Part shown: piece after piece, positions 484 to 63,674 of the stretch
Layout: every line of letters begins with the position of its first letter
Position numbering within the stretch: the stretch's first letter is position 1
Assembly: GCA_027972325.1 (NCBI GenBank)
Contig: JAPMOS010000027.1
Span: 372,001 to 436,000 of the forward strand
Origin: Paratrimastix pyriformis
Taxonomy: Eukaryota; Preaxostyla; Paratrimastigidae
Reading direction: 5' to 3'
Length of the DNA stretch: 64,000 nt
Notes under the pieces: generated by a model
What the model was told of the DNA's origin: nothing
The model's input: only the letters and a program-made list of their open reading frames with translations
Databases searched by the model: none
Made by a program: the position numbers and the translations under genes

Positions 484-3400
484 ATGAGAAAGACCGAATC
501 ACCCAAGACACAAAATGGGAAAACTAAAGGGAGGGAGGACACCCACCACCCCGCACGCCCCTTAACCGGCGCGCACGAGAAGGTTTGCGTCGAACACCTC
601 GCGCACAAGGCACGGGGGGCACGGGCAGGTGGCGACCGGCTCGCGAGCGCGAACAAGCGCCTCAGAAGCGGCCTGCCCCATCCCCATCCCCATCCCCATC
701 CCCATCCCCATCCCATACCGGGCGACCCTTGGTGCCCGGGATTGCGGCTGGCTCCTTGGGCGGCCGCAGCCGTGCAGCGGATGCTGGACCGGTTCAACGA
801 GGACGAGGACGAGGACACCCTCAAGCGTCACTACGAGGAGGAGGCCAGGGTCCGCACCGCCCCCTCTCCGGCACCCGGCACCCGGCACCCGGCACCCGCT
901 GTCCCCCATCTGAATCCTGCCCTGCCCTTGCGTAGACATCGGGGCAGCCGGTGGGAGGACCGGGGGGCGGTCGGCCGCCCATGGGGCGCAGCCCCTCTTC
1001 GGCCGTCATGGCCCCGGCACCCGATCCCGGCCCCGGCCCCGGCCCCGGCCCCGGCCCCAGCCCCAGCCATGACCATGACCATGACCATGACCATGACCAT
1101 GACCACCCTGCTGGCAGCAGCCTCCGACCCGCGGCCCCGCAGGCTGCTGGGCTGCTGCAGAGCAGCCCCACCGGGTCCGACACTTCGGCCGATGCCCAGG
1201 GGCTCGCCGCTCCCGCCGCCCTCGAGCTGCCCGATGCCCCAGTGGCGGAGGCGCCCGGGCCGCCGCTGCTGGTGCCTGCACTGGTGACCCCCTCGGTGGA
1301 CGGGTCGCTGCGGGGCCTCGCGGCCATGCTCCACCTGCCGGGCGGGGCCGGGGACCTGTCCACCGACCTGCTCGCCGCCCTGGGCGTCCCCCACGACACT
1401 GCCCTGGGCCCCGGCCAGGGGCCTGACGGACACCCAGATGAAGGCGGGCATGAAGGCGGGCATGAAGGCGGGCATGAAGGCGGGCATGAAGGCGGGCATG
1501 AAGGCGGGCATGAAGGCGAGCATGAAGGCGAGCATGAAGGCGAGCATGAAGGCGAGCACGACGGCCCCAGGGGGCCGCAGGGCGGCATGTCATTCCACAT
1601 CGAGGCGGGCACCGACGCGGGCCCCGGGCGGGCGGTCGAAGTGCGCACGCCCCCCCTCGAGGGGGCCCTCTCGGGACTGCTGCCCCCCCTCCAGCCCGGC
1701 TCCGTCGCCGCCTCAGTCTTGGGGGGCCGCGCCCCAGCCGGGGGCCCGCGACCGTCCTCGGCCCTCTTGGGTAGCCCCACCCCGAGCGGCCTCTCCCCGG
1801 AGAGCGCCCCAGGGGACTTCGGTCTGTCCCTCCCTCCCTCTCCCTCCCCCCCCCATGCTGACGAGCCAGGGACATTGATCTGCCGTCGTGGGCGGGGGCG
1901 CGGACGGGCCAGTGGGTCTGGGGGACCTGCCCACCGAAGCCTCGACGCCCTCAGCCGATGGGACCCAGCCGCTGCTGGTGCAGTCGGTCGACATGGCCGG
2001 GGGCTCGGCTAAGGGCAGTCCCTTGCCCTTCGGCAGGCCCGGGAGCGCCGCCCTCCCTGCCAGTTCGAGTGGCCTGCTGGAGCAGGCCGTCCCCCTGCGC
2101 AGCCTGGGCGGCCCCACGACACCCGTCCCGAGCCCGACCAGCGACCTGACCGGCCAGCCGGATGGGCTCGTCCTGGCGGGGCTTCTCAACACGGACAACG
2201 CGCCCACCCCCTCGCCCGAGGGCGACGAGTCCCCGCCAGCGGCTGCCCCGCATGCCACCATGCCCACCCCGGGCAGACCCCCATTGGCCCCGCTGACCCT
2301 GCGGACGGCATCGGCGGCCAACATCGGGTCCGCCCCCCCGCCGCCCGACCGCTCCTCACCACCCCGCTTTCTCACCCCACGACCCTCCGGGCGGGGCGCA
2401 GGCCGCGCCTAGGTCTGGGGGCCATTGCCGAGGAGGGGGCCGGGTCGTTGGCCCAGCAAGCGAGCTCGCCCCCGCCGAGCCCCCACCCGGCCGGCCTGTC
2501 GGCCCTTCCGTCGACGGCCACCCTGGGGCCCAGCGCCTCGGGTGTGTTCGGAGGCCCCCACACGCCCCCCTCTCCCAGCCGCCGCCCCCAGCGCGAGCGG
2601 TCCATAACCCTGGTTCGCCCTCGCCTCGGTCCCTCGTTGGACGGCACCGGCACACCGAACCCACCCCGAACACATTGCACATCCCTGCGCACCCGATTCA
2701 CCGGGCGTCCCTTCTGCTTCTGCTTCTGCTTCTGCTTCTGCTTCTGCTTCTGCTTCTGCTTCTGCTTCTGCTTCTGCTTCTCCTTTCCCCTGTCCGCAGC
2801 TGGGCGGCGGGGCCATGGACATGTCGGCCAGCATCGCCCTGGAGGAGCCGCCCGCGCCCAGCCAGCGCCAGCAGCCACAAGTGCAGCTGCCCCCACAGCC
2901 GCCACAGCCGCCACAGCCACAGGGCGACCAGCCGCCCGAAGGCAACCCGCCCGAGGGCAACCACGAGGCCGACGCGGCCACCTTGCAGCAAGCCACCGAT
3001 GGTGCGTGCGAGGAGGCCCACGATGAGGCCTCCAAAGGGGACGCCAGGGGGCCCGGCGCGGCCACCAAGGACCGCAACGTCAGCAGCCTCGACGCGATGA
3101 AGCAGTCGATCGCCCTCCCCAAAGGTCCGCGCCCGCCCCCTCCTCGCCGCCCGCCGCCCTCCTCGCCGCCCCGTGTGGAGTCCGGCCACTGACCCGGTCG
3201 CTGACCCGGTCGCTGACCCGGTCGCTGACTCGGTCGCTGACTCGGTCGCTGACTCGGTCGCTGGCCCGGGGCATGCTGGGGCAGGCTCGATGCTGTGCTT
3301 GCTGATGGGTCTGGGGCTGGTGCTGCTGTGGACGGTGGCCGTCTCGGTATTCTGCATCACCGAAGTGACCACCACCGAGTTCGTCCCCTCCGAGCTGACC

Positions 3401-5918: not shown

Positions 5919-5949
<31 letters not shown>

Positions 5950-7581
5950 ACACACGCGTCCCCCGTCTTGATGCCCTCCCGCCTGCCTTTGCTGCCCTCC
6001 GGCTCACCTCCGCTCCATTCGCCCCGGCCTCCGCGCCAGTTGGCCATGATGCCCGCCCAGGAATCCAGTCCGCGCTGCCCGCCTGCCCCCGCCTGCCCCG
6101 CCTGCCCCGCCCCCCCGCCTGCCCCGCCTGCCCCCGCCTGCCCCGCCTGCCCCGCCTGCCCCGCCTGCCCCGCCTGCCCCGCCTGCCCCGCCTGCCCCGC
6201 CTGCCCCGCCTGCCCCGCCTGCGCACCTCTCCTTTCCGCCCCGGACCCATGTTATCCTGCTCCGGCACTGCCGCAGACGCGGAGCTGGTTGTCTGGAACG
6301 CCACCCTGGTGCTGAAGATCAAGAGCATCGACGTCCAGCACAAGCGCCTCGTCCGTTGTCCCCTCCGTGACCCGCGCCCCCGCCCCGGCTGTGCCGCTGT
6401 CTGCTTGTCGGCCCCTTGCCTGGCGTGTGGGCCATCCTGACCGAGTTGGGCCCGGGTTGTCCGGGTCCGGTCGGGGGGGCGCAGGTGGACCTGATCAACC
6501 AGATGTACCGCGCCATGACCGGCGGCAAGGAACGCGAGGTCGCCCTGCCTCCCCGCCCTGCCTCCCCGCCCTGCCTCCCCGCCCTGCCTCCCCGCCCTGC
6601 CTCCCGCCCTGCCTCCCGCCCTGCCTCCCCGCCCTGCCTCCCCGCCTGCCTCCCGCCCTGCCTCCCCGCCCTGCCTCCCCGCCCTGCCTCCCCGCCCTGC
6701 CTCCCGCCCTGCCTCCCCGCCCTGCCTCCCCGCCCTGCCTCCCCGCCCTGCCTCCCCGCCCTGCCTCCTCGCCCTGCCTCCCGCCCTGCCTCCCCGCCCT
6801 GCCTCCCCGCCCTGCCTCCCCGCCCTGCCTCCCCGCCCTGCCTCCCCGCCCTGCCTCCCCGCCCTGCCTCCCCGCCCTGCCTCCCCGCCCTGCCTCTCCC
6901 CGCCTCCCGCCCTGCCTCCCCGCCCTGCCTTTCTCTCCTCCCGGGGGACGAGGGCACGACGCCGTCGGGTGGCGCCTCCGGCTGCGGGCTGCGGGCTGCG
7001 GGCTGCGGGGCCGGTCTGGGCAGGCGGTCTTCGAGGTCTTCGAGGGGCTGCTGAACTACACCCGGACCCACTTCAGCGACGAGGAGCTCATGCTGCGCCG
7101 CTACGGCTACCCCCTCCTCGCACAGCACCATGAATGGCCCGTCCCCGCCCCCCACCGCCCCCCACCGCCCACCGCCACCCCTGCCGGGGGCAGAGCGGGG
7201 GCAGGCGGCAGGGGCAGAGCGTGCAGAATGGCAGCGGGGACTGAAGGGGCTGCGGCTGGGGTCCGTGTGGGGCGGCGGCGCAGGCACAAGCAGCTCGTGC
7301 GGCAGGTGGGCCAGCACGGGGCCGCCTACCGGGCACAGGAACCCGGGGCGGACTTCTCCCTGATCAACTTCCTGACCTCCTGGCTCACCTCCCACATCAA
7401 GGTCCGCCCCGCCGCCCCGCCGCCCCGCCGCCCCGCCGCCCCCGCCGCCCCCGCCGCCCCGCCGCCCCGCCGCCCCCGTCGCGATTGGGCTGCTGCTCAC
7501 TGCTGCTGCCGGGTGGCCGTGCGCTTAGGGCGGGATCGCCAGTACGCCCAGTGGCTCCAGTCGAAGAACCTGCATCCCTGA
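484..7581 (+). CDS. two-TM receptor-like membrane protein with C-terminal hemerythrin domain (multi-exon)
   Basis: The N-terminal region is low complexity and probably cytosolic: exon 1 reads from ATG 484 (MRKTESPKTQNGK...) and joins in frame to RMLDRFNEDEDEDTLKRHYE, which ends at a GTCCGC donor at 850. Next come His-rich tracts (HD repeats near 1066-1106, HEGG repeats 1438-1560). TM1 lies near 3290-3360 (MLCLLMGLGLVLLWTVAVSV). A roughly 250-residue inter-membrane region follows (exons near 3540-3740, 4145-4380, 4570-4800, 5303-5410). TM2 lies near 5640-5700 (ISVCIVMLVVSALIFA). The linker EAYKTLRM/LAMMPAQES leads to hemerythrin (exons about 6278-6351, 6485-6537, 7023-7136, 7284-7401, 7529-7581). 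All seven diiron ligands of bacteriohemerythrin have counterparts: H in IDVQH, H and E in HFSDEE, two H in QHHEWH, H in WLTSHI, D in DRQYAQWL. Likely role: oxygen or iron sensing at a membrane (inference). Exon joins in the low-complexity N-terminal part are uncertain. Confidence 0.72.
676..716. repeat. CCCCAT hexamer tandem repeat (intronic)
   Basis: About seven copies of a 6-bp unit inside the inferred first intron of the hemerythrin gene. Confidence 0.9.
1438..1560 (+). repeat. 12-bp coding minisatellite encoding HEGG/HEGE
   Basis: About ten copies of GAAGGCGGGCAT. The frame that is open here reads (HEGG)n then (HEGE)n. Because the unit is 12 bp, copy-number change keeps the frame. It sits in the predicted N-terminal cytosolic part of the hemerythrin-containing protein, 330 bp after a (HD)n tract. 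Confidence 0.8.
2711..2782. repeat. TTCTGC hexamer tandem repeat (intronic)
   Basis: About twelve copies of a 6-bp pyrimidine-rich unit just before an exon of the hemerythrin gene that starts near 2800. Confidence 0.9.
3186..3263. repeat. 12-bp tandem repeat CTGACCCGGTCG (intronic)
   Basis: About six copies between the donor near 3124 and the TM1 exon starting near 3287. Confidence 0.9.
3794..4058. repeat. 17-18 bp minisatellite (TGTCCATCCCGTGTCCC variants)
   Basis: Degenerate tandem array filling the intron between the exon ending near 3739 and the next exon near 4145 of the hemerythrin gene. Confidence 0.88.
4818..5157. repeat. 340-bp CACAG pentamer array (intronic)
   Basis: Nearly pure 5-bp repeat (CACAG, with CGCAG and CACAA variants toward its 3' end) occupying most of one intron of the hemerythrin gene. 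The ordered drift from CACAG to CGCAG to CACAA blocks suggests local expansion of variant units. Confidence 0.95.
5222..5292. repeat. 15-bp tandem repeat CCTGGCTCCCTCCGT
   Basis: About 4.5 copies, lying in the same intron as the CACAG array, downstream of it. Confidence 0.9.
5465..5572. repeat. 39-bp minisatellite, three copies
   Basis: The motif ATCATGCCGCCATTCACC recurs at 5472, 5511 and 5550, giving a 39-bp period within the intron before the TM2 exon. Confidence 0.9.
6078..6222. repeat. 9-bp tandem repeat TGCCCCGCC (intronic)
   Basis: About fifteen copies, some degenerate, in the intron immediately upstream of the first hemerythrin exon. Confidence 0.9.
6541..6938. repeat. 13-bp minisatellite CGCCCTGCCTCCC, about 30 copies (intronic)
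   Basis: Fills the intron that separates two hemerythrin exons (6485-6537 and 7023-7136). The repeat begins within a few bases of the donor. Confidence 0.93.
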
Positions 7582-8033: not shown

Positions 8034-8633
8034 TCAAGGGTACTCGAAGGGCTCTGGCGGGGCGGGCTCGTCATCGCCCACTGCGACCCGGCCAGCCCAG
8101 GGGGACGACCGAGGTGGGGGTGGGTGAGCAAGGCGCGCGGGTGTGTTGGCAACGAGAGGCGGGGGGGGGGGGGGAAGCGACCCTTCATGGCCGTCTCGGT
8201 GACGAGGGAGACGGGCTGCTCGGCGTGCTCGTCCAGCAGGACGATGATGCCCATGCGCTTCTCCTGAGACGCGCCCCCCCGACGGGACGGAGGCCGGGTC
8301 AAGAGGCCGCCCGACAAGGAAACGAGCAGCCAGCGGGAGGGAGGGAACCTGCAGACCGGGCGGACAGGCTTGTAGCGGGGGTCGGAATCGTAGAGAATGT
8401 CCTTGCGCTGATCGGGCGTGACGCGGGCCGGGTTTTGGAGGACCTGGAAAGCGGCGTCCTTCGTGGCAACGGCGGCTGCGGTGGCGGGCCCCTCGGTGGT
8501 GGTGGTGGTGGCCGTGGCGGCAGGAGTGGGAGAAGGGGTGGCGGCAGTGGTGGTCGTGGTAGTGGCGGCAGTGGCGGTCGTGGCGGGGTGGTGGCGGGTG
8601 AGGGGTGGTGGTGGTGGCGGTGGTGGTGGTGGT

Positions 8634-8665
<32 letters not shown>

Positions 8666-11600
8666 GGCCTTCCACCTCCATCGAGGAGGCCCCCTCACCG
8701 GCGGCGTTCTTGGCCTGCTCGCGCTCCTTCTTCTTCTTCTCCTCGAGGGCCTGGGCGTGGGCGGTCGTCGACAGAATGGCCGCGGGGCCCTTTTTGACCT
8801 CCTCCTTGGGAGGGGGCACCCGCTTCTCTGGGTAGGCGTACAGGGAGGGCTTGTTGTTGCTCTTGAAACTAAAGAGGGGCATCTGGAAAGGACAGGCCGG
8901 ATCAACGGACGGATGATGATGCACATGCGCAGAAGCGGACCCATCGGGGGGCACGGGGCACGGGGCACGGGGCACGGGGCACGGGGCACGGGGCACGGGG
9001 CACGGGGCACGGGGCACGGGGCACGGGGCACGGGGCACGGGGCACGGAGGGAAGGCGGACCTGGAGCTCCGAGTTGACGGCGATGATGGCGGTGGGCTCG
9101 AAGGCCAGCGCCAGGCAGTGGATCATGGGATGCCAGTACCAGAACTGCAGGAAGAGGGTCATCCCAGCGATGGCCCCCAGCCGGGGCACGCCGGTGGCCG
9201 AGTGGAGCGAGATGGTGACGTTGCGGCCGCCCGCGTCGATGATGCCCGTGGCGAGCATGGCCCCGAACTTGACGATGGGCTCGACGACCTTCTGAGGCAT
9301 GATCTTGAAGTACTCCGCCCGGACGTCCTTGATCTAATGGAGGGAGGGGGTGGGGGTGGAGATTGCCGGTGCGGGCGGAGATGTGCGGGATCGGCCGACC
9401 TTGGGCTCCTGGACCTCGTTGCGGAGCATGCACACCATGGCCAGCCCGATGCAGGCCGCCTGGCGGACGAAGCTCACCCGGTCCTCCATCATGTGGCGCA
9501 ACATGGCAAACGCCTCCGTGTTCCCCGTGGCGGCGCAGGAAACCCCGAGGGCCAGAGCCACGCCGTAGCGGACGTGGGGGTTGAAGCTCTCTGCGGTCAG
9601 CTTGAGCATCTTGGGGCAGCTCTCGGGGTCCCTGCACAGCATGAGGCGGCCAAGGATAGGCCGAAGGACCGCATGAGACAAGAGCGCTAACGCCACCCAC
9701 GCAGCACAGGGAGGATCGCGCTGTGCAAAGTCGCACGGACCGGCTGAGGAGGAAGCCCACGGCCATGACGGAGGCTCGTCGGACGTCATCGCTGGGGTCG
9801 CTGACGGCCACCCGAAGGAGGCGCGAGAGGATGGCGTGGTTCGGGTTGCCGCAGTAAGCCAGGCCGGCGCAGAACATGCCGCCATACCGGATGAGGGCCT
9901 CCTGGTCCATGCACATCTGCTCGATGACGATGTCGGCCTGGCCCTCGCACCCGCACATGATCAAAGCCACGGCCAGGCCCAGGGCGCGGGTAATCTTTTC
10001 GTGCTTCGTGTCGTGGGCGTAGGCCAGCAGTTCGTGGACGGCCTCCGCGTTGCCCGTGCCCAGCATGACCATGCCAATGCCGTAGGCAGCGGCCTCACCC
10101 GAGACTGCGTTGTCGGCGAAAAGCACCGCCTTCAGCGCCTCAAAGAGAGCTGCGGGAGAGGAAGTCACCGAGCGGAGAAACGGACCCAGTGAGGCTCAGC
10201 GGAATGGGGATGTGGGAATGGGATGCGGGAAGTGGATGCGGCAAGGACAGACTGAGATCGCCAGTCCCAAGCGCAGCAGCGCCCAGGCCCAGAGCGGCAC
10301 CATGCTGGACCACGGGGGCATTGGCGGGGTTGCCAGCGGCGGCGTTGAGGGCCTCCAGGAGGTAGGGGACGCACTCGCCGCCGTGGTTGGCGTTGATCAG
10401 GCCGAGCGCATAAAGGGCACCGGCTTCGCTGTAGGGGCTCGAGGTGGCTGCTCCGGCCCCGACAGCGCCGGCACTCGCGGGGAGGAACTGGCCCAAGAGA
10501 GTCATGCCCTCCTTGATGTGGCCCTGTCGCGCATAAAAGAAAAAAAATATGGGTGGATGGGTGTCAGAATGGAAGACGGACAATGTGCACGACACCGATG
10601 GATGACGTGACGGCCATTTTGGCGAAATTGGTGGCCCGGGCGATGAACTCCTCGTTGGCGCGGAGGAAGGAGTCACACGCAGTGCCTGCATACATCAGGG
10701 CATGGGCATACACGGCACCGGCGTGCGTCAGCGAGCTGCGCTGGTCGACTTTAGCCTGGGGGAACGGGGCGGGGTGTGAGACGGGGAGAAGAGCGCCAAG
10801 AACGACCTTCACGTCGGCCATGTTGAGAGGGTCGGCCTTGTTGTGTGCAAAGAGGAACCGCAGTTTGAGATCAGTCAAAGGCTCGCCCGAGAGGACGCTC
10901 TGAACTTGGGTGCCCAGGGTGCCCGGTTCGCCTTCAAAAGAACCCGTGAGGGCCTTGAGACGGTCGCGAATGACCCGGATAAACTGCTGAGGAGCTGCCT
11001 CGAGCAGATCAAAGGCGAGTTGAAGTACTGTGGCCTTGTTCTGAATCAGGAGAAGGAAGTGTGAAGCAGGGTGTGGCAGGAACGCCGAACGGACATTCTT
11101 CTGGATTTCAGAGACGAACATCAGCGCGACTCGCTCAGGGTCATTCAGGGAGACCAGCAACTGGCAGATTTCGAAGAGATCAGGGGGGGTTTGGGCACTG
11201 TGCATCTGCACCAGAAGGCGGAAGATCTGCAGGCGGAAGTCGCGGCTGTGGACGTTCTTCAGGGAGATGCGGTGGCACTCGGCGAGCATGTGGCGTAGGT
11301 TGCCAGATTGCTGCATGGCGCGCTCGAGGATGTCAAGGCGATGCCCCTCAATCGCCAACCCCATCACATGGTGGAATTCGCCCTTGCTGTGGAAAGTTGA
11401 ATAAAAGGCGCTGTGGGGGAGGAGTGGGCTCCAGACCTGAGAGCCAACTCGCACTTCCGATTGAAAAGTGCCTCCAGGCGAGGATCCATTGGGGCTGGGT
11501 GATCTTCCTTCCCCTCGGCCAGACGGAGTTGCTCGGCCTTGTATACATCGATGGCCTTATCTGGAGCGAAAATGGTGTGTTTGATCTGTGAGAATAGTCT

Positions 11601-12071
11601 GCAGACCAGAAATTGTATCAACAAAGCTCGAACTCTGGGTGATATCAAAGAGGTCGCCGGCCAGCAAGGCGAACTTCAGCGAGGTGGCGAGATCATTCAA
11701 GTGGAACACAACCTGTCATTGTCCGGAATCCCGAGAAAAGCCGAGAACCATTAAGAGCGAGCGGTGAAAAAACACTGATTTGGAAAGAAATCAAACCTTC
11801 GCGGCAAGGAGCGCGGCGAGGTGATGGTCCTGAAACTGCTCGTTCTCGGCAAGGGTTTTGCTGCGTGAGCCAAAAAGTCGGTGAGCGACAAAGCGGTGAC
11901 ACTTTACGCAGACATTTTGGGGAGAACGTCGGCGATTTGAGGCCAGAAGTGAGCGACCATGTCATCAAGCCGGCGAAGAGAGGTAGCCTTCACAGAAGCT
12001 GAAGGATGATCCAGCATTGGGAGGAAAAAGGCAGCGTTCCGGAGAGGATCTTGGGCCACCTCTACTTGCAT
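8034..12071 (-). CDS. PSMD1: 26S proteasome regulatory subunit RPN2/PSMD1
   Basis: Largest scaffold subunit of the 19S base, built of PC (proteasome/cyclosome) repeats. The start is MQVEVAQDPLRN at 12071 (an in-frame ATG at 12122 is an alternative). Exons match PSMD1 in order: helical N-terminus (SLRRLDDMVAHFWPQIADVL; AAKVVFHLNDLATSLKFALL, AGDLFD; GLAIEGHRLDILERAM), then the PC-repeat toroid (FMHAGT-like HALMYAGTACDSFLRANEEF, ARATNFAKM; GALYALGLINANHGG; AAYGIGMVMLGTGN; ALGLAVALIMCG; GGMFCAGLAYCGNPN), then VRYGVALALGVSCAATGN, then a Lys/Glu-rich insert EEKKKKEREQAKNAAGEG, and the C-terminus ending PPEPFEYP at a stop at 8034. Human PSMD1 ends with a closely similar EPPEPFEY motif. A run of low-complexity codons and intron repeats lies near 8480-8680. 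Tail to tail with the hemerythrin gene. Confidence 0.95.
8944..9048. repeat. 7-bp tandem repeat GGGGCAC (intronic)
   Basis: About fifteen copies in a PSMD1 intron. On the gene strand the exon ends SELQ and the donor GTCCGC reads leftward from 9060. Confidence 0.93.
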
Positions 12072-14220: not shown

Positions 14221-15370
14221 GAGGACCGAATGGGACGAGGAGGCACAAAGGCCGAGGGGCCGAGGGTGCGGGTGGGGCCCGGACCATTCTTGTCGAAGTC
14301 GAAGACCTCGGCCAGGAAGGGCTCGTCAGGACAGGGCTCCAGACAGAGAGGAGGGCGGATATGAGCCAGGGTGCGGTCGACACGAACTCGAGGGGGGAGA
14401 GCGGGCAGGCGGGCAGGCGGGCAGGCGGGCAGGCGGGCAGGCGGGTGGCGGGCAGGCGGGCAGGCGGGCAGGCGGGCAGGCGGGCAGGCGGGCAGGCGGG
14501 CAGGCGGGCAGCGGGCAGGCGGGCAGGCGGGCGGGCGGGCGGGCAGGCGGGCGGGCAGGCGGGCAGGCGGGCAGCGGGCAGGCGGGCAGGGCAGGCGGGC
14601 GGGCAGGCGGGCGGGCAGGCGGGCAGGCGGGCGGGCAGGCGACCGGGGTCGAGGGTCTTGTTGATGACCTCGGTCTTGAAGGCCGGCACGGGGCGGCCCC
14701 CGACGAGCCGCGAGAGGATGCAGAAGGGGTCGCTCTTGCCGAAGAAGTCCTTCTTGTCGAGATGCTCGGCCCGGAGGCTCACCCGGGCCACCGACGCGCA
14801 CCGGGACTCCTCCACCCCGACGGTCAGCATCCCCCGCCCCGTCGGGTGGCCGACCGCTCCCAGCGGGAAGACGGCAGTCATGGCGGGCCTGTCCGGGGAG
14901 GGGGGGGGGGCGAGGGGATAGCGCATGACGTGCCTGACGGGAGGGAAGAAACGAGAATGGCCACGGTGGAAGGAGGAGGCTCCGGGAGGCGGACCTGCCC
15001 GCAATGAACCCGAGGGTCGTCTCGCACTCGCCGATCAGCTACTCATGCGGGGCGGTGAGGTTTTTCACAGGCGAAAATAATCTCAAACCTCTTGTTGGTC
15101 GAGACGGGTGGAAGTGGTGTCCCAATCGTAGATGCTGAACTTCACAGGCTGGACGCGCTCAAAGGCATAGCGCATTTTGAGGCCGGTCACAAAACGAGGG
15201 TTGAGCGTGTCACGAAGCACCTCGGTACGGGATGCCTCGACCCAATTGAGGCAACCATCTTCCTTGACAAAAAGCACACAGCAGGGATCGCTTTTCGAGC
15301 CGACATCAAGGTTTTTCAGCTGCTGACAGCTGATCGAAAGGGAAAGCATTGTCGCGGGTTCGGCGGCCAT
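12247..15370 (-). CDS. copine (C2-C2-vWA calcium/phospholipid-binding protein)
   Basis: Copines bind membranes through Ca2+ via two C2 domains and recruit partners with a vWA-like domain. C2A: MAAEPATMLSLSISCQQLKN, DVGSKSDPCCVLF, then microexon LIGECETTLGFIAG (14995-15038). C2B: VARVSLRAEHLDKKDFFGKS, DPFCILSR, TEVINKTLDP, AEVFDFDKNG, LIGQAQLTVAQL. The copine core follows: FLDYILGGCEVSLIAAIDFT, ASN (MIDAS-like D-x-T-x-S region), LQGMLAAYGNAIAQTELYGP, YFVLLIITDGEIT, LSVIIVGVGSASFSNMKALD, ending LLEYMKFRGFVPNP. A C-terminal extension of about 65 residues is rich in A/P/V and ends in MPMPMSMPMPM. The start is the ATG at 15370, just after an AG that could be a 5' UTR acceptor; MVKF at 15385 is an alternative. 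Confidence 0.93.
13224..13374. repeat. GAGG/GGGA tetranucleotide array (copine intron)
   Basis: Purine-rich on the plus strand, hence pyrimidine-rich in the copine transcript. Confidence 0.9.
13463..13628. repeat. 15-bp minisatellite ACAGCAGGGGCGGGG (copine intron)
   Basis: About eleven imperfect copies between two vWA-coding exons. Confidence 0.9.
14400..14640. repeat. 8-bp tandem repeat GGCGGGCA, about 30 copies (copine intron)
   Basis: Fills the intron following the C2B exon that ends TEVINKTLDP on the gene strand. Confidence 0.92.
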
Positions 15371-16509: not shown

Positions 16510-19500
16510 ATGTTCGACGTGTATTTCCATTCTTTTTCGGCGCGTGATTTGGAGGCCAAGGATGCCAATGGTCTCAGTGATCCCTATCTCGTCATCACAT
16601 GCAATCGTACCGAGGTCCTGAAGGCACCTCTGAAATCGGAAATACTCAGCAAAAGTCCGCCCTTTTCCTTGAACACCCAGCCCTCAACCCTCGCTGGAAT
16701 TTTTCACTCGCAGCCCTCAACCCTCGCTGGAATTTTGCCGCCCATGTCGAACTTCCGACGGGCTACGAGAACACTACCTTTACCCTCGCGGTGTTCGACC
16801 ATGATGTGTCCTCGAAAGACGATGAGATTGGGCATTGCGAGCTTTCTCTTCTGGAAATGCTCACTTCGCCGGCCCACATCGATTACACCCTTCGCGGGGA
16901 GCACCCGAACTCTGGCCGTTTGATGGGCGTCGTGGAAGCCCACGCTCGGTCGCAGCTCGTGGTGACCCTGCCCAATCCGCTCTTCGGCAACCAGGCCGTG
17001 GCCCCGCAGGTCACGATGGAGTGCTGCTGGACGGGTGGCGGGTCTGTCCCCGGGCCACACTGACGCCATGTGAGGGGTCTCGCCCGGCCACGCCCGACCT
17101 GACTGGTCCTTCTTGGCACCTTGGGTGTGCCTGCCGGGTGGCGCGGCCAGGAAAACGGCCCTCTTTGCCCGGGACCTGCCCTCGGTCGAGCTGACCTGCC
17201 TCACCGACACCGCGGTCTGCGCCCCCCGCCCCGCTTTCCACCCGGGCTCATTTTCTTGTCCGTGCCCCTACCACTGCTCCCGCTCCTGCTCTCTGTTGGG
17301 TCTCCCTGGCAGGCCCTCGGCGGCGAGTCGCTGCTCATCCGCGCCTACGCCAACGGCGACATCCGCTCGGCGGTCAGCGCCCCGGTCCGCCTCGACGCGC
17401 CACCCTGGCCCATGCCCTTCATGTTTGCTGCTTGCTGGGCGTCTGGGTAGATCGCCCTGCCCGCTGGCGGGCTGCTCTCCCAAGGCAGCGCCTCACCCGC
17501 CCCTGTGGAGCTGCTCCTGCCGGGGGCTGCCGGGGCGCCCGCCAAGGTGACCCTGGCCGCGGCGGTCCGCCTGGAAGGGTGCCGGCGCGCCCAGATGGCC
17601 CACGGCGTCCTCGTGGACGGGGGTCCGTCGCTCCGCTGCACCCCCCCCGCTGCCCCGCTGCCCCGCTGCCCCGCTGCCCCGCTGCCCCGCTGCCCCGCTG
17701 CCCCGCTGCCCCGCTGCCCCGCTGCCCCGCTGCCCCGCTGCCCCGCTGCCCCGCTGCCCCGCTGCCCCGCTGCCCCGCTGCCCCGCTGCCCCGCTGCCCA
17801 CAGCTTGCTCATCCTTGCCGCTTGTGCTCGCTTTGGGCCTCCGCTCCCCCACCTTCTCCCCGGGGCCGCCCAGTGGTGATGAACGGCCGGCCGGCCGTTG
17901 CGGGGGCCTCGGCGGGCGGGGCGGCAGCCATCGGGATGTCCCCGGCGGCGGACTTCCTGACCCGGGGGGCGGGCCTCCCGCGCCTGGCGGCCCTCATGCA
18001 GCAGGCCCTGGCGGCCGGCCCGCTGGGGCCCCTCAGCTCCGGCAGCATGCCCCTGCCCATCCTCGGGTGCCGCATCGTGCAGGGCATCCTCTACACCGGT
18101 CCGCACCCCCCACCCGCCCAACGGCACCCCGCGCCCGCGCCCCCTCCACCGGCCGTGGGGACCTCTGGCCCAACGGCGCACTGTGACGGACTTGCCATGT
18201 CGTGCCATGATGCCGTGTGCCGTGCCTGATCATGCCTGCCGGTTTCTTTTTCTTTGGCTTGGGGCCGCAGAGCCGACCGCTGCGGGGCAGCCCGTGGGGC
18301 AGTTGCTGACGGGGGTGCTGCAGGCCGTGGCGGCCGTCCAGGCCCCGGCGGGGTCGCCCCAGCAGGCCGTCCTGATGAGCTGGCTGCCGCCCCTCTGCGG
18401 CGCCCTGGCCGCATACTCCCAGGGTCCGCACACCGCACACCGCACACCCACCCACGCGCACGCCCCATCCGCACCCAGACACCCCATCCGCACCCCACAA
18501 CCCTCTTCCCCTCGCCGCCCCCCGGAGCGCCCCTCATCGCATGCCCCGGGCGCCATGGGCGGGCGTCGCAGCGGCCGGACCGGAGGCGGCTTGGTGGGGG
18601 CTGCTGCTGGGGCTGGTGCCCCGGCTGGACGCCCAGCTGGTCGAGCCCGTCGCCGCCCTGGCGGCTGCCCTGGAGGCCTTCCTCGATCGCAGCCCCTGTC
18701 CGCCTCCGCCCCGATCTGCATCTGCCGACCCCCCCCCCCCCCCCCCATATGCTGCCCTGGCCGCTGCCCCTGGACGCCGCTGCCGGCCGATGGGCTCACA
18801 CGGTGCCCTTCGATTCGATCCCCCCCCAGCGCCCCCTCCCGAGGCCTGCGGGGTGCTCGTCTCGCTGGCCGCCCTCCACACGGCCGCCTCCTGGGTGCGG
18901 GTGCCCGCCCTGCGCGCATTGACCCTCTGCGCCAGCTCCCGTCCGCATCCCCTCAGCGCCCCCTCCCTCACCCCTCCCTCACCCCCTCCCTCACCCCTCC
19001 CTCACCCCCTCCGCCCTTTCCCACGCCCCCCATCATCCCAATTGTCCCACCAATCATCCCAATCATCCCTTTTGCTGACTGTGACATCCCATCTGGGGGC
19101 CCACCTTGGGGCTGGGGGCGTGGGGATGCAGCGGCCGGGGCCGGGGCCCTGTCGGCAGCCCTGACCGACAAGAACGACCGGTTCGCACTCGCGGTCGCTG
19201 AGGAGGTCCCCACGCGCCCCCCACCGCACACGCGCACCCCCCGTCGCACACACGGGCACGGGTCCAACTGACGAGGGGGCTGCCCATTGGCGATGGATGC
19301 GGCGATGGGGGGGCGTGCGGGGCGCAGCTTGCCGCGGTCTCGATGGGTCCCTCCAGCCGGCGGGCGGCGGGCGCGTGCGCGGTGCTGCTGACCCTCTGCG
19401 CCGCCAAGCCCAACGCGGGCGAGCTCGCCGAGGCGGCCATCAAGGGCCTCCTCGCCCACTGCGAGGCCTCCGGTCCGGCGCTTGGCCCCGGGGTGCCCTG

Positions 19501-40600: not shown

Positions 40601-42607
40601 CTGGAGCCGCTCATCCTCGCCCAGAAGCGGCCCCTCGTCGAGGACGCCGTCCGCCCCCGCCCCCGCCCCCGCCCCCGCCCCCGCCCCGGCCCATCCCACC
40701 CCATGTCATGGGAGCGCCCATGCGCCCATGTCCATGCCGATGCCCCGTGCCCGTGCCCCTCGTCGGCCATCCGCCATCCCATGGCGGCCCCCTTCCTGTG
40801 CCCTGCGGATGCCGTTGGGTGGGGCGGCCGGCCGGGCAGGTGCGGCGGCGGGTGGACGAGCTGATGCGCCACGAGCTGCTCAACCTGCGCGGCGAGGAGG
40901 CCCGCATCGCTGCCGCCGGTCCGCCCCTCCGCTCGCCCCGTGCCCGCCGGCCCGCTGGCTGTCCCCTTCATCGGCTGCCCCTCTGCCCCTCATCGGCTGC
41001 CCCTCATCTCCTTTTCATCGGCTGCCCCTCATCTCCTTTTCATCGGCTGCCCCTCATCTCCTTTTCATCGGCTGCCCCTCATCTCCTTTTCATCGGCTGC
41101 CCCTCATCTCCTTTTCATCGGCTGCCCCTCATCTCCTTTTCATCGGCTCCTCATCATCGTCGGCTGCCCCCGCAGCCAGTGGCAAGAAGAAGAAGAGCAA
41201 GACGGGCAAGAAGAAGAAGGGCAAGAAGGGCGCCCACAAGGAAAAGAAGGTCCCGCCCCCGCCCCGCCTCCTCCAAGCCTGCCCCTGCTGCTCCTGCTGC
41301 TCCTGCTGCTCCTGCTGCTCCTGCTGCTCCTGCTGCTCCTGCTGCTCCTGCTGCTCCTGCTGCCCCTGCTGCCCCTGCTGCCCCTGCTGCTCCTGCTGCT
41401 CCTGTCGCCCTGCCCCCGTCTGTCCGGTCCTGCCTCATTCCCGTCTGGCTTCCCCTGTCTGTCTCGGTCTGGCTGGCCCCGTCTGGCTGGCCCCGTCTGG
41501 CTGGCCCCGTCTGGTTGGCATGCAGGCGGCCGAGCCGCTGACGGCCGAGGGCCTGGAGTCGCTCTTCGCCAAGCTGGTCGCGGCCAACATCATCCAGCAG
41601 GCCCGCCCTCGCCCCGCCCACCGCCCATCCGCCCCCCCTGCCGCCCCCCCTGCCGCCCCCCCTGCCGCCTGGCCTGGCCTCGCCGCTTCACCCGATTGGC
41701 CTCCCGGGGGTGCCGCGGTCGGACGGGCAGTGCCCCCCTGTGGACCTGGCCGAGTGGGTGGGGTGCTACGACATCACGGGCAGCCTGCTGACCCAGCAGC
41801 GGATGGCCCACAAGGCCGACCTCGAGGCCCGCATCCGCAGGGGCGAGCAGCCTCCCGCCCCAGACGCGTTCGACCCGCTCATGGTCCGCGCCCTGCCCAT
41901 GCCCCATGCCCCATGCCCCATGCCCCATGCCCCATGCCCCATGCCCCATGCCCTCGCTCCCCCCGCCTCGCTCTTGGTCCGCCCCCCTGCCGGCCCTGCC
42001 CCGTCTCTCCTCTTCCCCCCCACCCCCTGCACCCGGCCGGCTGCGGTGCCCCTCAGGCGGTGGTGTGGGGTCGCTGTATGGTCGGTGACCGGGGGGGGCT
42101 GTGCAGGCGCCCCGCAACCCGGGGCTGAAGGAGGTCCTGGACACGGTCACCGAGATGGCCATCTTCCCGCTGGGGCTCACCCCCGAGATGGTCCGTCCGC
42201 CAGCAGCCCGCCAGCCCCGGGGCCGCCCCTTCCCCGCCCCTCGTCCTCGTCCTCGTCCTCATCGCCCGATCTCTGGGCCGGCTGCGGGCGGGTGCGGGTG
42301 CGGGTGCGGGTGCGGGTGCGGGGCTGGGCGGGGCAGCTGGAGCGGATCCAGCCGCCGCGGGCGGTGTTCCTCTACGGGCCGCTGGGTGTGGGTAAGACCA
42401 TGCTCGCCCGGGGGGTGGCCTGCCAGACGGGCGCCACCTTCATCAACCTCTCGCCCCGGGTGCTGGGGGCCGACCCCCAGGCCAAGCTGGGCAAGAAGTT
42501 CATGCAGGAGGTCTTCACTGTCCGTCTGCCCACCCGTCCGCCCGCCGGCCTCGGCCCCCCCCCCTCCGCGACCTCTCGGGGCCCGCTCTGTCGCATCCGC
42601 CGGGACG

Positions 42608-42641
<34 letters not shown>

Positions 42642-58603: not shown

Positions 58604-58634
<31 letters not shown>

Positions 58635-60967
58635 ATCCGTTGCACCGCACCGGAAGGGCTCCTCTTCCTCGAGCGCAACCCCACACCCACCCGCCCGATC
58701 TGCCCCGATCTGCTGTCTCCTCGTCCCGCCAGACGACCTTCGCCCTGCCCGTCGGGAACAGCCCCATGGCGACCGACCGGCTGAACGTGACCCAACTCGG
58801 CTGCGGGGGCTGCTCGGCCACATTTTCGGCCTCCGGCCTGCCGCTGAGCCTCCTTCCGGGGGCCCAGGGCTCCCTCCAGGTGACCCTCACCACCCAGGGT
58901 AGCCTGGGGCCCTCCTCGGCGGTGCTCTCGCTGACCCACAACGACCCCCTTCCCCAAGGCAACTCCTCGTCTGTTCATCGCCCCCCTCTGCCGCCGGCGC
59001 CCATATGGAGTGGATCTGGCCTGGCGAGCGTCCCACCATTCCGCTGCTTCCGCTCCTCTGGCCCCCTGCCCGCTCCGCTCCGGTGGGGTGCTCGCAGGGT
59101 GACCGTTCAGTGGGTGCAGACGCCCCCGCCCGTCTTTGAGCTCCACCACGCCACCCTGACGGACGGCCAGCTCGCCGCCACGGGCATCCAGAAGAACCTC
59201 ACCAGCGCCACCATGGTCTGCCCCGCCGACCGCTCCGTCGCTCGTGGAGCGGCTGGGGCTGGTGTGGGCTGGTGCCCCGCTGGCCAACCCGCTGCCGGGG
59301 CTGCGCTCAGCCTTCCCTTTCGCCCCCCTGCCCCCTGGGTGGTCTGGCGGCCCGGCAGATCGCCACCGACGGGGTCCTCATCGCCAACTCGGGTGCGGGC
59401 CCCCTGCGCGTCACGGCAACCTTTGTGCCCGTCTTCGGCACCTCGGCCGCCGCCTCGAACGGGGGCGCGACCCCCGCGGCCGCCGCTCCCTCGGCAGCCG
59501 CAGCGCCCCGCACCGAGGAGCCCGGCGAGTGGAACCCCAGGCGGCTCATTGTCCGCCGGAACATCGACGGCCCCCCGGCCGCTGCCAACAACAAGGCCCA
59601 TCCCGCCGTGGCCGCCTTCTACGACCTCATCGGCGTCGAAAAGGTCCGCCGCTGCCACCCTGCCACTGCCACCCTGCCACTGCCACCCTGCCACTGCCAC
59701 CCTGCCACTGCCACCCTGCCATCACGTTGATCCGCGGCGCCTATCTCGGACCGCCCTCCCCCCGGCTGACGGGCTGACGGCTGGTGGTGGGTGGCTGGGT
59801 GGCTGGCGGGGGCCGTGTCCAGGTGGAGCCTGTGGGCCGCTTCTCCATGGACATTGTCACCCTGGCCGAGGGGCCGTCGGCCGGGATGGCCAGCTACCTC
59901 GGGGCCGCGGCCAACTCGGGGACGCCCTCTGACCGGGCCATGGACCTCTGGGCGCGCATGGTCTGCCGCCTCTCCAACCCAACGCGTGAAGATGTGGCCT
60001 CGTGCCAAGAGGAACCGAAGGATGAGGGGAAAAAGGAGGGCAGGGCAGCAGGGCAGGGCAGGGCAGGGCAGGGCAGGGCAGGGCAGGGCAGGGCAGGGCA
60101 GGGCAGGGCAGGGCAGGGCAGGGCAGGGCAGGGAAAAAGCGAGACCCTCATCCGTCATGCCCTGCCCTGCCCCCATCGAGTCATTTTACATGCCTGCCCA
60201 CCCTCCTTGGCGCACCTAACCGGGTGCTGGTCTCAGGGCGAGGCGCTTGCTTCCAACGAGGAGACCCACCTGCGGGCGATGGCGGCCTCGCTAAAGGAGG
60301 CTGGCGGCATCCGCTACATGGAGCGTGACTACCGCGTCACGGCGAGCCAGTTCATCCCCAACGACCCCCGCTTCGGCGAGCTCTGGGGCCTCCGCAACTC
60401 CGCCCAGGGTCCGCCTCCCCGCCTGCCCCGAGGCGCTGCGCTGCCCCACCGCCACGGCGCGCCCTTCATGAGCCACCACCACCCACCACCACCCACCACC
60501 CACCCACCACCCTACAGAGGGCGCGGATATCTCGGCGACTGAGGCCTGGGAGCTGACGCAAGGGGCGCCCAACGTTCTTGTTGCCGTCATCGACACGGTC
60601 CGCCAGCCGAGCGCCACCGCCCCACCCATAGCCCGAATTACATTGTTCCATCGCCCCCCCCCCCCCCCCCCCCCCCCCCGCCCCATCGCCCGCCCCATCG
60701 CCCGCCCCATCGCCCCCCCCCCCCCTCCCTGCCCCATCGCCCGGATGGCATCGCACGAACCATTCCACCCATTTCGGCTCGCTTCTACCCGGGGCCCCGG
60801 GGCACCTCAGGGCATCGACTACACGCACCCCGACCTGGCGGACAACGTGTGGACCAACCCGGGCGAGATCCCCGGCAACGGCATCGACGATGACGGCAAC
60901 GGGTACGTGGATGACGTGCACGGGTACAACTTCGTCGCCAACACGGGCGACCCCATGGACGACCACA

Positions 60968-60999
<32 letters not shown>

Positions 61000-63674
61000 G
61001 GTCCGCACCCACTGCCCCCACCGGCGCTCAGTGGCTCGCTTTCGTCCCCTGGCCCGCCTCGGCCCCTCCTTGGCCTCCGTTGCCCCGGCCACTGCCCCCC
61101 ACTCGCCCCTCATCCCGTCCCTGCTCCTCCCTGGCCGCGCAGCCGCCTCGAACAACGGGCTTGGCGTGGTCGGAGTGTGCCCCCACTGCAAGCTGATGGC
61201 CCTCAAGTTCCTGGACAGCTCGGGGAGCGGGTCCGACTCGGACGCCATCCGGGCCCTCGACTACGCCCTCCAGATGGGCGCCTCGGTGACCTCCAACAGC
61301 TGGGGCGGCCCCAACTACGTCACGGCGCTGCGGGAGGCCTTCGAGGCGGCCATCGGGGCCGGCATCCCGGCCGTCATCGCGGCCGGCAACGACGGACACA
61401 ACATCGACGTGAGCCCCGCCTACCCGGCCTCGTACCGCCTCGAGGGCAGCATCGTCGTGGCGGCCTCGACCTCGCTCGACGGGATGGCCTCCTTCTCCAA
61501 CTTCGGCACCGGGACCGTCGACCTGGCCGCCCCGGGGGTGGCAATCCTCAGCACCGTCCCCGGCTCCGGTCCGCCCCGAGGCCGCCCCGCCCCGCCCCGC
61601 CCCGCCCGATCAGAGCCTGACCCACGCCTGCCTTCCCCCCACCCACTCCGCATGTCATGCCCCCTCCCCTGTTCATCGCGGTTTTCATCTTCGCGGCACG
61701 TCGTCAGCGTACGGCACGAAGCAGGGGACGTCCATGGCCACCCCCCACGTGACCGGCGTGGTGGGCCTGATGCTGTCCCTCAACCCCATGCTGAGCCCCC
61801 GCCAGGTCCGCAGCCGCCCCGCCGCCGCCGCTTCCCGGGGGAGGGGCCGAGCGGCCTCCGCGCTCCACGGGCACCCGGGCCAATTCGCCTCACCCCTGCC
61901 CGCCCCCCTGGCCCGCCCCGCCCGCCCTGCCCGCCCGGGCCCCAGGTGACGGACATCCTGCGGCGGACGGCGGACCCGCTGCCGGTCTGGTCGGCGCTGG
62001 TCAAGGCGGGCGGTCGCATCAACGCCTTGGCGGCCCTCACCGAAGTGGCCCAGCTGTGGCTCACGGGGGCCCCGACCCTGCCGGCCGGTCTGCTCGCCTC
62101 CCTTCCGCCTCTCCCCACCGATCTCACCCGTCCACCGGGCGGGCGCAGTGATGGAGATCCCCGCCGGCCAGACGGCCGCCCTCAACCTGACCTTCAACGC
62201 CACCGCCGTCAACGCCGGCTCGTACCGGGGTCCGCAAGCCGCCCCAGCCGACCCCGCCTCTTGGCCGGCCTGCTCTGGAGCCCACAACCACCCATCCCAA
62301 CCACCCACCCAACCACCCATCCCAACCACTCCCCCTCCGCAGGGATGCTGGTCATGACGAGCAACGACCCCGCCCACCCCAACCGGACGGTGCCCCTGGG
62401 CCTGACCACCCCCGGCACGGCCATGGCCGCTCTGGGCCAGAGCGCGCTCGCCTTCGGGGCGGCCTTCCTGAACTCCTCGGCGACCCTCAGCCTGACCCTC
62501 ACCAACCGCGGTCCGCCCTGCCTCCCCTCGGCTCCCGGGGATCCGTGCCGCATCTTGGGCGCTCGCCCGCCGACATGCTCCGCCCTCCTGCGCAGGGACG
62601 TGCCCTCTGACGGCCACCTCGATCACCTGCGAGCCCGCGAGCGCCTGCGTGGCCTTTGGGCTGCCCGCCCTGCCCGGGGCCCTGCTGCCCCGCCAGTCGC
62701 GCGTCCTGGCGGTCAGCTTCCGGCCCCCGCAGGCCGTGTCCGTCCTTCTTCCCTCCCCTTCCCGCATCCCCCTTCCCCGCGGCGCCCTTCCCGCACCTCT
62801 CATTCGCCGCCGATCCCATCCCGGATCCGCCGACCCGCCTCATTCATCCACCGGTCTCGCCCGTCTCCGCGCAGCTTGTACAATGCCACCCTCACCATCC
62901 AGTCCGACAGCGTCGGCGGCCCGGTTCGTATGCTCCCCTGCCCGTCCAGGCTTGCCTGCCTTCTTGCTGGTGGTGGGGCGACGCGGCGCATCCCGGGCAC
63001 ATCCCCATCTGGCACACGCACCGGGGGCTGCTTTTCGGGGGCGGCGAGTGCAGGTCGCGGTGGCGCTCGAGGGGATGGGGCTCAGCCTGGCCTTCAGCCC
63101 AGCCGCAGTCCAGGCGGCGGTCCTCTCGGGCCACAGGGTCGACCTCGGCGCCTCCCTCACCAGCGGCTCGCCGGCTCCCGTCTGCTCCTCCCTCCTCCCC
63201 CCCCCCCCCCCCCCCTCCCTCCCCCCGCGCCCCGCCGCTGCCCCGATCCGCTGCGGCACCGTTTTGCGTCAACCCGCCATGCACCGCACGCACACACGCG
63301 GCGTGTTCCCCCAGGCGACTGTGCATCTGACCTCGCTGGCCGTGAGCGCGGCCCAGTTCCTGGAGGGCGGCGGGACCCGCTACGACCCGGCCACTTCGTA
63401 CGCCTGGCGGAACGCCACCGCCGAGCCCGGCTTCGCCGACGGGTGGATCGAGCTGGGCCCCGGGGCCTCCAGCCTGAGCCCGTCGGACGACTCGCACCAC
63501 CCCGTCGAGATCGGGTTCGCCTTCCCCTTCTACGGGCAGCGCTTCACCTCTTGCTACGTCGACTCCAACGGGTCTGCCTCATGCCCTGGCGGTTCCCGGG
63601 TCGTGTGGCACGTGGCACCTTGGCACAGGCGCAGGCCACAGGAAGAGGGAGGAAAGACACCGCAAGAAGTGTAG
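57260..63674 (+). CDS. secreted subtilisin-like (S8) serine protease, multi-domain, probably continuing past the window
   Basis: Signal peptide MAVHSCNFTLFLALLFICPF, then beta-rich domains: LPFAFPFFGSPQTAVAVSSN, GFLTF; WAHIPQMDLYPNEASAAVYV; ASH-like LPRGSVDLGSIVLG. An I9-type propeptide end (IRYMERDYRV) precedes the mature start NDPRFGELWGLRN. The catalytic triad is intact: Asp in VIDT|GIDYTHPDL (split by an intron), His in DDHSHGTHVAGTIAG, Ser in GTSMATPHVTG; the oxyanion Asn is in IAAGNDGHN. Calcium-loop-like GNGIDDDGNGYVDDVHGYNF is common in bacterial S8 enzymes. After the protease, more ASH/beta domains (VMEIPAGQTAALNLTF; GMLVMTSNDPAHPNRTVPLG) and a second IGFAFPFYGQRFTSCYVDSN, matching the first beta domain. 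The reading then leaves the last clear exon near 63574, with no certain stop. Function: extracellular or lysosomal proteolysis (inference). Confidence 0.85.
58606..58633. repeat. poly-C run (subtilisin intron)
   Basis: About 28 uninterrupted C; another poly-C run lies at 60657-60679 in a later intron of the same gene. Confidence 0.88.
60045..60134. repeat. GGGCA pentamer array (subtilisin intron)
   Basis: About seventeen pure copies, purine-rich in the sense direction. Confidence 0.92.

Follow-up and report, generated by a model that had tools for sequence, protein, structure and literature searches.

The window analyzed here is a 64,000-nucleotide stretch of the genome of Paratrimastix pyriformis (GCA_027972325.1, contig JAPMOS010000027.1, positions 372,001 to 436,000), and the subject is the 5' splice sites (donors) of its introns together with the U1 small nuclear RNA (snRNA) that would read them. 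P. pyriformis is a free-living unicellular flagellate of the Preaxostyla, within the Metamonada. Three genes of the window were used to anchor introns: an Rpn2/PSMD1 gene, a Sec24-like gene and a gene similar to DRC11/IQCA1. Their donors mostly follow GTCYGY (Y, pyrimidine) rather than GTRAG (R, purine), and all eight U1 genes found in the assembly carry a change in the 5' end that fits this pattern at +3 of the intron.

Introns were located by spliced alignment of proteins to the genome. GT and AG were obligatory and the other donor positions were unweighted; GC donors were additionally permitted for Rpn2, and none was used. Since the aligner demanded both ends, the 48 donors are GT and the 47 acceptors are AG by construction. 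The anchored set comprises 14 donors from Rpn2 (placed with one identical protein), 20 from DRC11 and 14 from Sec24. The top match of a draft spliced Rpn2/PSMD1 model is a P. pyriformis protein with 96% identity across 100% of the draft. The Sec24 and DRC11 genes rest on more distant homologs because the homolog searches returned no named P. pyriformis protein. Of 43 DRC11 donors proposed, the 20 backed by 5 or more of the 10 homologs were retained; for Sec24 the threshold was 3 or more of the 4 homologs, which 14 of 39 donors reached. The others were dropped before counting. Doubtful donors at 38686, 41577 and 42888 in DRC11 and at 8675 in Rpn2 were left in the counts. The remaining sense-strand GT sites of these gene regions served as the control. 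The published P. pyriformis assembly is described, in the available text of its report, as 633 scaffolds with 56,627,582 bases, a guanine-plus-cytosine (GC) content of 60.94% and a BUSCO completeness of 76.3%, with gene models built using intron hints from RNA sequencing (PMC10703272).

GTCCGC is the most common word among the 48 anchored donors (20), followed by GTCCGT (8), GTCTGC (4), GTCGGC (2) and 14 others that occur once each. The class GTCCGY accounts for 28 donors, GTCYGY for 33, GTCNG (N, any base) for 38 and GTRAG for none. C is found at +3 in 43 donors, compared with a fraction of 0.38 at other GT sites (p 1.8e-13), and G at +5 in 39, compared with 0.325 (p 5e-12). CYGY follows GT in 33 donors versus 0.064 (6.4%) of other GT sites (binomial p 2e-28), and RAG follows GT in 0 of 48. 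Pyrimidines are present at +4 in 38 donors and at +6 in 40, and G is present at -1 in 34. In Rpn2, which occupies a less GC-rich stretch, C is kept at +3 in 12 of 14 donors but only one is GTCCGC. What is fixed in the donor is thus GTC-G; the form with CC goes with GC-rich genes.

An earlier note on this DNA had proposed that its introns open with GTCCGC in place of GTRAGT. The departure from GTRAGT extends beyond the examples named there, and GTCCGC stands as the commonest form in GC-rich genes; as a general statement, GTC-Y-G-Y fits better. All 13 named GTCCGC sites carry that word, with one coordinate shifted by a single base (35086 to 35085). Their description as exon ends fixed by homology holds for 9060 (minus strand), 31540, 35085 and 39276, which belong to the anchored set; the other nine are plausible exon ends that are unanchored. 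The GTTTGA donor that had been assigned to PSMD1/Rpn2 was recovered by spliced alignment at 11796 on the minus strand. The word GTAACA is present at 56472 in an AT-rich stretch and lies outside the anchored set. The coordinates of the genes and donors are collected in Table 1.

Table 1. Anchored genes, their donors and further GTCCGC sites in the window
Feature	Coordinates	Strand	Basis
Rpn2/PSMD1 gene, 14 introns	8037..12071	-	spliced alignment, P. pyriformis protein, 919/919 residues identical in alignment
Rpn2 donor GTCTGC	11908..11913	-	spliced alignment
Rpn2 donor GTTTGA, +3 exception	11791..11796	-	spliced alignment
Rpn2 donor GTCTGC	11601..11606	-	spliced alignment
Rpn2 donor GTCTGG	11431..11436	-	spliced alignment
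Rpn2 donor GTCCGT	11089..11094	-	spliced alignment
Rpn2 donor GTCGTT	10801..10806	-	spliced alignment
Rpn2 donor GTCCGT	10576..10581	-	spliced alignment
Rpn2 donor GTCTGT, complementary to own U1 at +1 to +6	10247..10252	-	spliced alignment
Rpn2 donor GTCCGT	9735..9740	-	spliced alignment
Rpn2 donor GTCGGC	9394..9399	-	spliced alignment
Rpn2 donor GTCCGC	9055..9060	-	spliced alignment
Rpn2 annotated donor GTGGAA, doubtful (repeat region), counted	8670..8675	-	spliced alignment
Rpn2 annotated donor GTCTGC; in-frame alternative GTCCGC at 8365	8351..8356	-	spliced alignment
Rpn2 donor GTCGCT	8176..8181	-	spliced alignment
Sec24-like gene, conserved part	31282..36374	+	spliced alignment, all 4 homologs returned
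Sec24 donor GTCCGC	31540..31545	+	4/4 homologs
Sec24 donor GTCGGC	31802..31807	+	4/4 homologs
Sec24 donor GTCCGC	32057..32062	+	4/4 homologs
Sec24 donor GTCCGC	32239..32244	+	4/4 homologs
Sec24 donor GTCCGC	32494..32499	+	4/4 homologs
Sec24 donor GTCTGC	32724..32729	+	4/4 homologs
Sec24 donor GTCGCC	32980..32985	+	4/4 homologs
Sec24 donor GTCCGC	33291..33296	+	4/4 homologs
Sec24 donor GTCCGT	33456..33461	+	4/4 homologs
Sec24 donor GTCCGC	33833..33838	+	4/4 homologs
Sec24 donor GTCCGG	34254..34259	+	4/4 homologs
Sec24 donor GTCCGT	34458..34463	+	3/4 homologs
Sec24 donor GTCCGC	34726..34731	+	3/4 homologs
Sec24 donor GTCCGC	35085..35090	+	3/4 homologs
DRC11/IQCA1-like gene (dynein regulatory complex protein 11)	37705..44342	+	spliced alignment, 10 of 65 homologs incl. 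P. eleionoma
DRC11 donor GTTGCG, exception	37804..37809	+	10/10 homologs
DRC11 donor GTCGGA	38014..38019	+	8/10 homologs
DRC11 donor GTCCGC	38221..38226	+	10/10 homologs
DRC11 donor GTTCCC, poorly anchored, counted	38686..38691	+	7/10 homologs
DRC11 donor GTCCGC	38881..38886	+	9/10 homologs
DRC11 donor GTCCGC	39276..39281	+	10/10 homologs
DRC11 donor GTCCGC	39585..39590	+	10/10 homologs
DRC11 donor GTCCGC	39842..39847	+	8/10 homologs
DRC11 donor GTCCGT	40019..40024	+	6/10 homologs
DRC11 donor GTCCGC	40397..40402	+	6/10 homologs
DRC11 donor GTCCGC	40649..40654	+	10/10 homologs
DRC11 donor GTCCGC	40919..40924	+	7/10 homologs
DRC11 donor GTCCCG	41250..41255	+	10/10 homologs
DRC11 donor GTCGCG, poorly anchored, counted	41577..41582	+	6/10 homologs
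DRC11 donor GTCCGT	42191..42196	+	9/10 homologs
DRC11 donor GTCCGT	42520..42525	+	10/10 homologs
DRC11 donor GTAGCC, poorly anchored, counted	42888..42893	+	5/10 homologs
DRC11 donor GTCCGC	43224..43229	+	10/10 homologs
DRC11 donor GTCCGC	43673..43678	+	9/10 homologs
DRC11 donor GTCCGC	43855..43860	+	8/10 homologs
GTCCGC, plausible exon end, unanchored	850..855	+	named in earlier note
GTCCGC, plausible exon end, unanchored	7402..7407	+	named in earlier note
GTCCGC, exon end, unanchored (exon presumably copine-like)	16655..16660	+	named in earlier note
GTCCGC, plausible exon end, unanchored	21792..21797	+	named in earlier note
GTCCGC, plausible exon end, unanchored	22020..22025	+	named in earlier note
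GTCCGC, exon end, unanchored (exon presumably subtilase-like)	60409..60414	+	named in earlier note
GTCCGC, preceding exon ends HGTHVAGTIA, unanchored	61001..61006	+	named in earlier note
GTCCGC, plausible exon end, unanchored	62511..62516	+	named in earlier note
GTCCGC, plausible exon end, unanchored	14989..14994	-	named in earlier note

A homology-free set of 373 coding-segment ends was obtained with a self-trained codon score from the window and from 100-kb stretches of contigs C441 and C112. Words in the zone at the coding 3' end were counted against the mean of two control zones. The counts are 50 versus 14 for GTCCGC, 19 versus 6 for GTCCGT, 14 versus 3.5 for GTCTGC and 11 versus 3 for GTCTGT; GTCAGG, a word outside the GTCYGY pattern, is likewise enriched (7 versus 0). 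GTCYGY appears near the coding end versus the upstream zone at 40 versus 22 of 124 ends in the window and at 52 versus 17 of 177 in C441. GTRAGY appears near 0 of 124, 2 of 177 and 1 of 72 coding ends in the window, C441 and C112, respectively. At the coding starts of this set, where AG was not demanded, the acceptor word GCAG is in excess (126 versus 57). In a scan of the drop in coding score over the 116 hexamers with at least 20 sites, simple repeats rank at the top and GTCCGC (50 sites) is the first other word. An unsupervised expectation-maximization motif search at coding ends returned a codon-like signal only and was replaced by the k-mer contrast. Over the whole window and both strands, GTCCGC occurs 117 times (76 plus, 41 minus) versus 57 expected from trinucleotides, and GTCTGT occurs 46 times versus 19 expected from trinucleotides and 29 from 5-mers. 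No clear branch-site consensus was found in the 47 introns: CTNAY is present in 11 versus 6 for the reversed sequence, and TNAY in 26 versus 10. Introns with microsatellites and short tandem repeats were noted at 4818-5150, 6063-6904 and 43322-43460, and the repeats of the last contain the donor-like word GTCYGY, mostly every 4-9 bases.

The snRNA searches were conducted over the whole assembly (56,060,509 bases in 495 contigs). Eight U1 loci were identified with the RF00003 covariance model, with which 41 of 992 first-look candidates were scored. All eight align at full length (model positions 1-166) with scores of 50.8-60.2 bits and E values of 3.7e-13 to 2e-10, below the gathering score of 69.5. 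A 21-base stem-loop I pattern with at most two mismatches matches the identical eight places. Each gene begins with AUACAGACCUUGC, where the canonical model sequence reads AUACUUACCUGGC. The usual 5' end, AUACUUACC, is AUACAGACC here, such that positions 5-6 are AG rather than UU in every copy found. The expected 5' end AUACUUACCUG was not found in these genes and AUACAGACCUUG is present in all eight; the canonical 13-mer ATACTTACCTGGC occurs 0 times in the assembly. The first 58 bases are invariant among the eight copies; in each of them, stem-loop I contains GAUCAC and the Sm position reads AAUGUUUGG. Minimum-energy folding of one copy predicts U1-like stem-loops (z -3.4). In the fold predicted for the U1 locus L001:1501-1656, CAGAC at the 5' end is base-paired to GUUUG around the Sm site, a pairing that would probably not form with Sm proteins bound.

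All eight U1 genes carry a CCCATAA element 59-60 bp upstream of the AUAC start. At U2 (8 of 10 matches examined) the element lies 58-60 bp upstream of the start, and it is also present at the U5 and U6 loci. The altered U1 end is not a feature of one odd copy, because all eight genes share both the 5' end and the upstream element. We infer that U1 starts where the gene alignment places it, which the spacing of CCCATAA supports. The U6 genes also carry TTATAA or TTATCA nearer the start, which would fit a division of these genes between polymerases II and III.

In the standard register, U1 G6 is opposite +3, A5 opposite +4, C4 opposite +5 and A3 opposite +6. The P. pyriformis U1 pairs at +3 in 43 of the 48 donors and canonical U1 in one. 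Pairing at +5 (39 donors) is equal for the two, and all 48 donors pair at +1 and +2, where GT was required. With the register left free, the mean best-duplex energy is -6.1 kcal/mol for the organism's own U1 versus -2.9 kcal/mol for canonical U1. The area under the curve (AUC) for separating the donors from 840 other GT sites is 0.72 with the own U1 and 0.55-0.56 with the canonical UU. When the 16 dinucleotides at U1 positions 5-6 are ranked, the real AG is second, after GG (0.90) and before UG (0.71). The +3C and +5G of the donors appear to form a code matched to U1. Of the three options in the earlier note, an altered U1 is the one that the genome supports, with U5U6 replaced by A5G6 in the donor-pairing stretch of all eight U1 genes found. 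The note had envisaged a U1 end complementary to GUCCGC; as read from the genes, the own U1 is the complement of GUCUGU instead.

The bases at +4 and +6 behave differently from +3 and +5. C is present at +4 in 31 and at +6 in 29 of the 48 donors, near its level at +7 to +12 (24 to 30 of 48). Among 143 GTCNG sites at coding ends, T at +4 is accompanied by a lower downstream GC than C (0.65 vs 0.72, p 0.001), and purines at +4 (12, 10 and 8 of 47 by GC class) fall below their downstream level. Since purines are few and T tracks low GC, a pyrimidine appears to be wanted at +4, with composition deciding which one. Partial tolerance of C facing A is known: human U1 snRNP binds a donor with +2C better than one with +2A, presumably through a protonated-A wobble (PMC4383343).

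U2, U5 and U6 carry canonical key motifs in the loci read. The U6 box is the canonical AUACAGAGA in 4 of 4 loci, the U5 loop is GCCUUUUAC in 7 of 7 and GUAGUA is present in both U2 loci read. Positions 1-7 of U1 are identical to positions 39-45 of U6 (AUACAGA), in what we take to be the numbering of human U6, as also for G44 and C42. C at +3 can pair with U6 G44 in 43 of the 48 donors, and G at +5 with U6 C42 in 39. Both RNAs can read one donor because the first seven bases of U1 equal this U6 stretch. A METTL16-like gene is present (an exon with CNPPFFEE, containing the CNPPFF motif), as is an SNRNP27 match, and loss of METTL16 or SNRNP27K as the cause, after the yeast model, was rejected on this ground.

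Very probably, these are GT-AG introns of the major spliceosome whose donor code has been recast from GURAGU to GUCYGY, and U1 snRNA has changed to match it. U1 and donor appear to have changed together, and U1 probably pairs in the standard register. G6 would pair with +3C, C4 with +5G, and C8 and A7 with GU as usual; with U at +4 and +6 the helix would be complete. The GC-rich genome often places C at these two positions, opposite A in U1, and the resulting mismatch or wobble would be tolerated. The unchanged U6 box could pair with the same intron bases as U1. It is further plausible, though we lean slightly against it, that the U1 5' end now copies the ACAGA-box stretch of U6, in which case GUC(U/C)G would be read twice, by U1 and then U6, with seven identical letters. 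Under this reading, the C that faces A of both RNAs at +4 and +6 would suggest an additional adaptation, such as a modified or protonated U1 adenosine.

Several observations weigh against a rewritten code matched by U1. All 48 anchored donors come from three genes in one window. Five lack C at +3 (11796, 8675, 37804, 38686 and 42888), three of which (8675, 38686 and 42888) are poorly anchored. The own U1 pairs at +4 in just 7 and at +6 in 11 of the 48 donors. A hypothetical G5G6 U1 separates the donors better than the real one, and U5G6 does nearly as well; U1 thus accounts for +3 and +5 and leaves the C preferred at +4 unaccounted for. At exon position -3, A and C are each present in 18 of 48 donors, with no shift to A as U11 of U1 would predict. 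The 5-mers of the window already hold most of GTCCGC, with 102 expected versus 117 seen. GTCYGY shows no excess at coding ends in the C112 stretch (4 vs 5 of 72). This stretch, C112:100001-200000, is repeat-rich, has a lower GC and contains 10 kb of N. A search for U1-70K (PF12220) gave 0 matches, but no positive control matched either, and U1C was not identified, the sole zf-U1 match being a WBP4-like gene. That match was rejected as U1C: the protein starts with MTEFWIHTPKHYCKYCN and resembles WBP4/FBP21, and we take the gene to be WBP4/FBP21-like. Its apparent intron opens with GTCCGT. The available text of PMC6679479 reports U1-associated proteins as almost absent from other metamonads and candidates for all five snRNAs in Monocercomonoides, given there without sequence.

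A donor code relaxed to GT, with CCGC as the background of a C-rich genome, was the third option of the earlier note. It accounts for part of CCGC, namely C at +4 and +6, which stand near the level of +7 to +12, and for T at +4 tracking lower GC. It also draws on GTNNG sites at coding ends, compared with the upstream control zone in bins of downstream GC. C occupies +3 at 64 of 87 sites versus 45 of 67 in the control at a GC of 0.7-0.8, not clearly higher, and at 20 of 34 versus 29 of 40, lower, above 0.8; the coding ends are imprecise and the control zone may itself contain true donors. These two classes likewise count against a U1-matched code. At a GC below 0.6, C is found at +3 in 22 of 35 sites versus 1 of 3 in the control zone, and the homology-free test of +3 is informative at lower GC only, because the two highest classes show no clear excess. 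For the anchored donors, C at +3 and G at +5 far exceed other GT sites, composition would favor C rather than G at +5, and the less GC-rich Rpn2 keeps C at +3. At these two positions, pure composition was rejected on the evidence of the 48 anchored donors; as an explanation of the whole it is very improbable, and it leaves the change opposite +3 in all eight U1 copies unexplained.

The second option was a donor choice driven by U6, in which C at +3 and G at +5 are kept for pairing with G44 and C42 and U1 followed or is dispensable. The canonical ACAGAG box, intact in all four loci, can indeed make both pairs, and donor selection by U6 without U1 is described elsewhere in the accessible part of a review (PMC11732430). 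Eight U1 copies with an invariant 5' end that matches the donor are nevertheless present. In other systems the same U6 box occurs with a purine at +3, so U6 alone does not force C at +3, and we regard a U6-driven choice as rather unlikely. The eight loci might instead be pseudogenes or off-type copies, with a working canonical U1 absent from the assembly; the best RF00003 score (60.2) is below gathering and the published assembly has a BUSCO completeness of 76.3% (PMC10703272). The promoter-like CCCATAA element in all eight, common to the U2, U5 and U6 genes, the 58 invariant bases, the U1-like fold of one copy, the match of the 5' end to the donors and the lack of any canonical 13-mer in the assembly leave this a still fainter chance than composition. 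That the introns are of the minor, U12 type has a probability close to nil and was rejected: the donors are unlike RTATCCTT, of which a scan of both strands over 264 kb gives only four octamers, none of them in the window, and GTATCC is found in 0 of 48 anchored donors, in an alignment that demanded GT and AG and so left AT donors outside it. A U12 snRNA candidate exists (C432:103343-103517, minus strand, with UAAUGAGUAAGGAAAAUA; 44.9 bits, gathering score 53), and P. pyriformis may have retained a minor spliceosome. The main text of a pan-eukaryotic survey of minor introns mentions neither Paratrimastix nor metamonads (PMC10639083).

The duplex of U1 with the donor is among the least variable contacts of eukaryotic gene expression, and the surveys cited below agree with this. 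Zhuang and Weiner reportedly showed in 1986 that changing the 5' end of U1 brings back pairing with a changed donor. Such suppressor and engineered U1 molecules follow the same pairing principle, but they are laboratory constructs for single sites whereas the U1 described here belongs to a natural genome. The P. pyriformis U1 shares with canonical U1 stem-loops I-IV, the GAUCAC loop, an Sm-like site and a Watson-Crick reading of the donor; it differs from the U1/GURAGU system in A5G6 in place of UU in 8 of 8 copies and in donors of the form GUCYGY. In the accessible text of PMC10581693, ACUUACC shows no variation in any of the species with an identified U1 (227 of 230 Saccharomycotina and 9 of 10 outgroups), and Stentor retains ACUUACC according to the part of PMC9505925 available. 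The yeast switches at +4 associated with METTL16 and SNRNP27K resemble the present case in a lineage-wide change of donor preference and a pyrimidine at +4. As described in the same part of PMC10581693, U1 and U6 are unchanged in those yeasts and the switch is linked to METTL16, whereas U1 is changed in P. pyriformis; since METTL16-like and SNRNP27 genes are present here, P. pyriformis did not follow that route.

Three further systems were compared from the accessible portions of their reports. The diplonemid S. specki also has a naturally altered U1, but there a single run-of-C variant stands beside a conserved U1 (PMC12621601), whereas all eight copies found are altered in P. pyriformis. Fritillaria borealis likewise shows a genome-wide donor change with compensating machinery; its two U1 versions do not differ at the 5' end, and the changes lie in U2AF and N6-methyladenosine (PMC13326754). 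Cyanidioschyzon merolae also reads its donors divergently; it lacks a U1 gene, and its U6 box is altered (PMC11732430, PMC10581693). In the accessible open-licence literature, outside which most subscription papers lie, no report was found of a genome whose only U1 is an altered one, or of the P. pyriformis donor, and in the odd cases published there a conserved U1 was retained or U1 was lost.

The donors have apparently moved in concert with every U1 copy found, which indicates that a nearly frozen contact can be rewritten. P. pyriformis thereby offers a natural test of U1 versus U6 as the setter of donor choice. Gene finders tuned to GTRAG may fail on such a genome, and related genomes of the Preaxostyla could date the switch.

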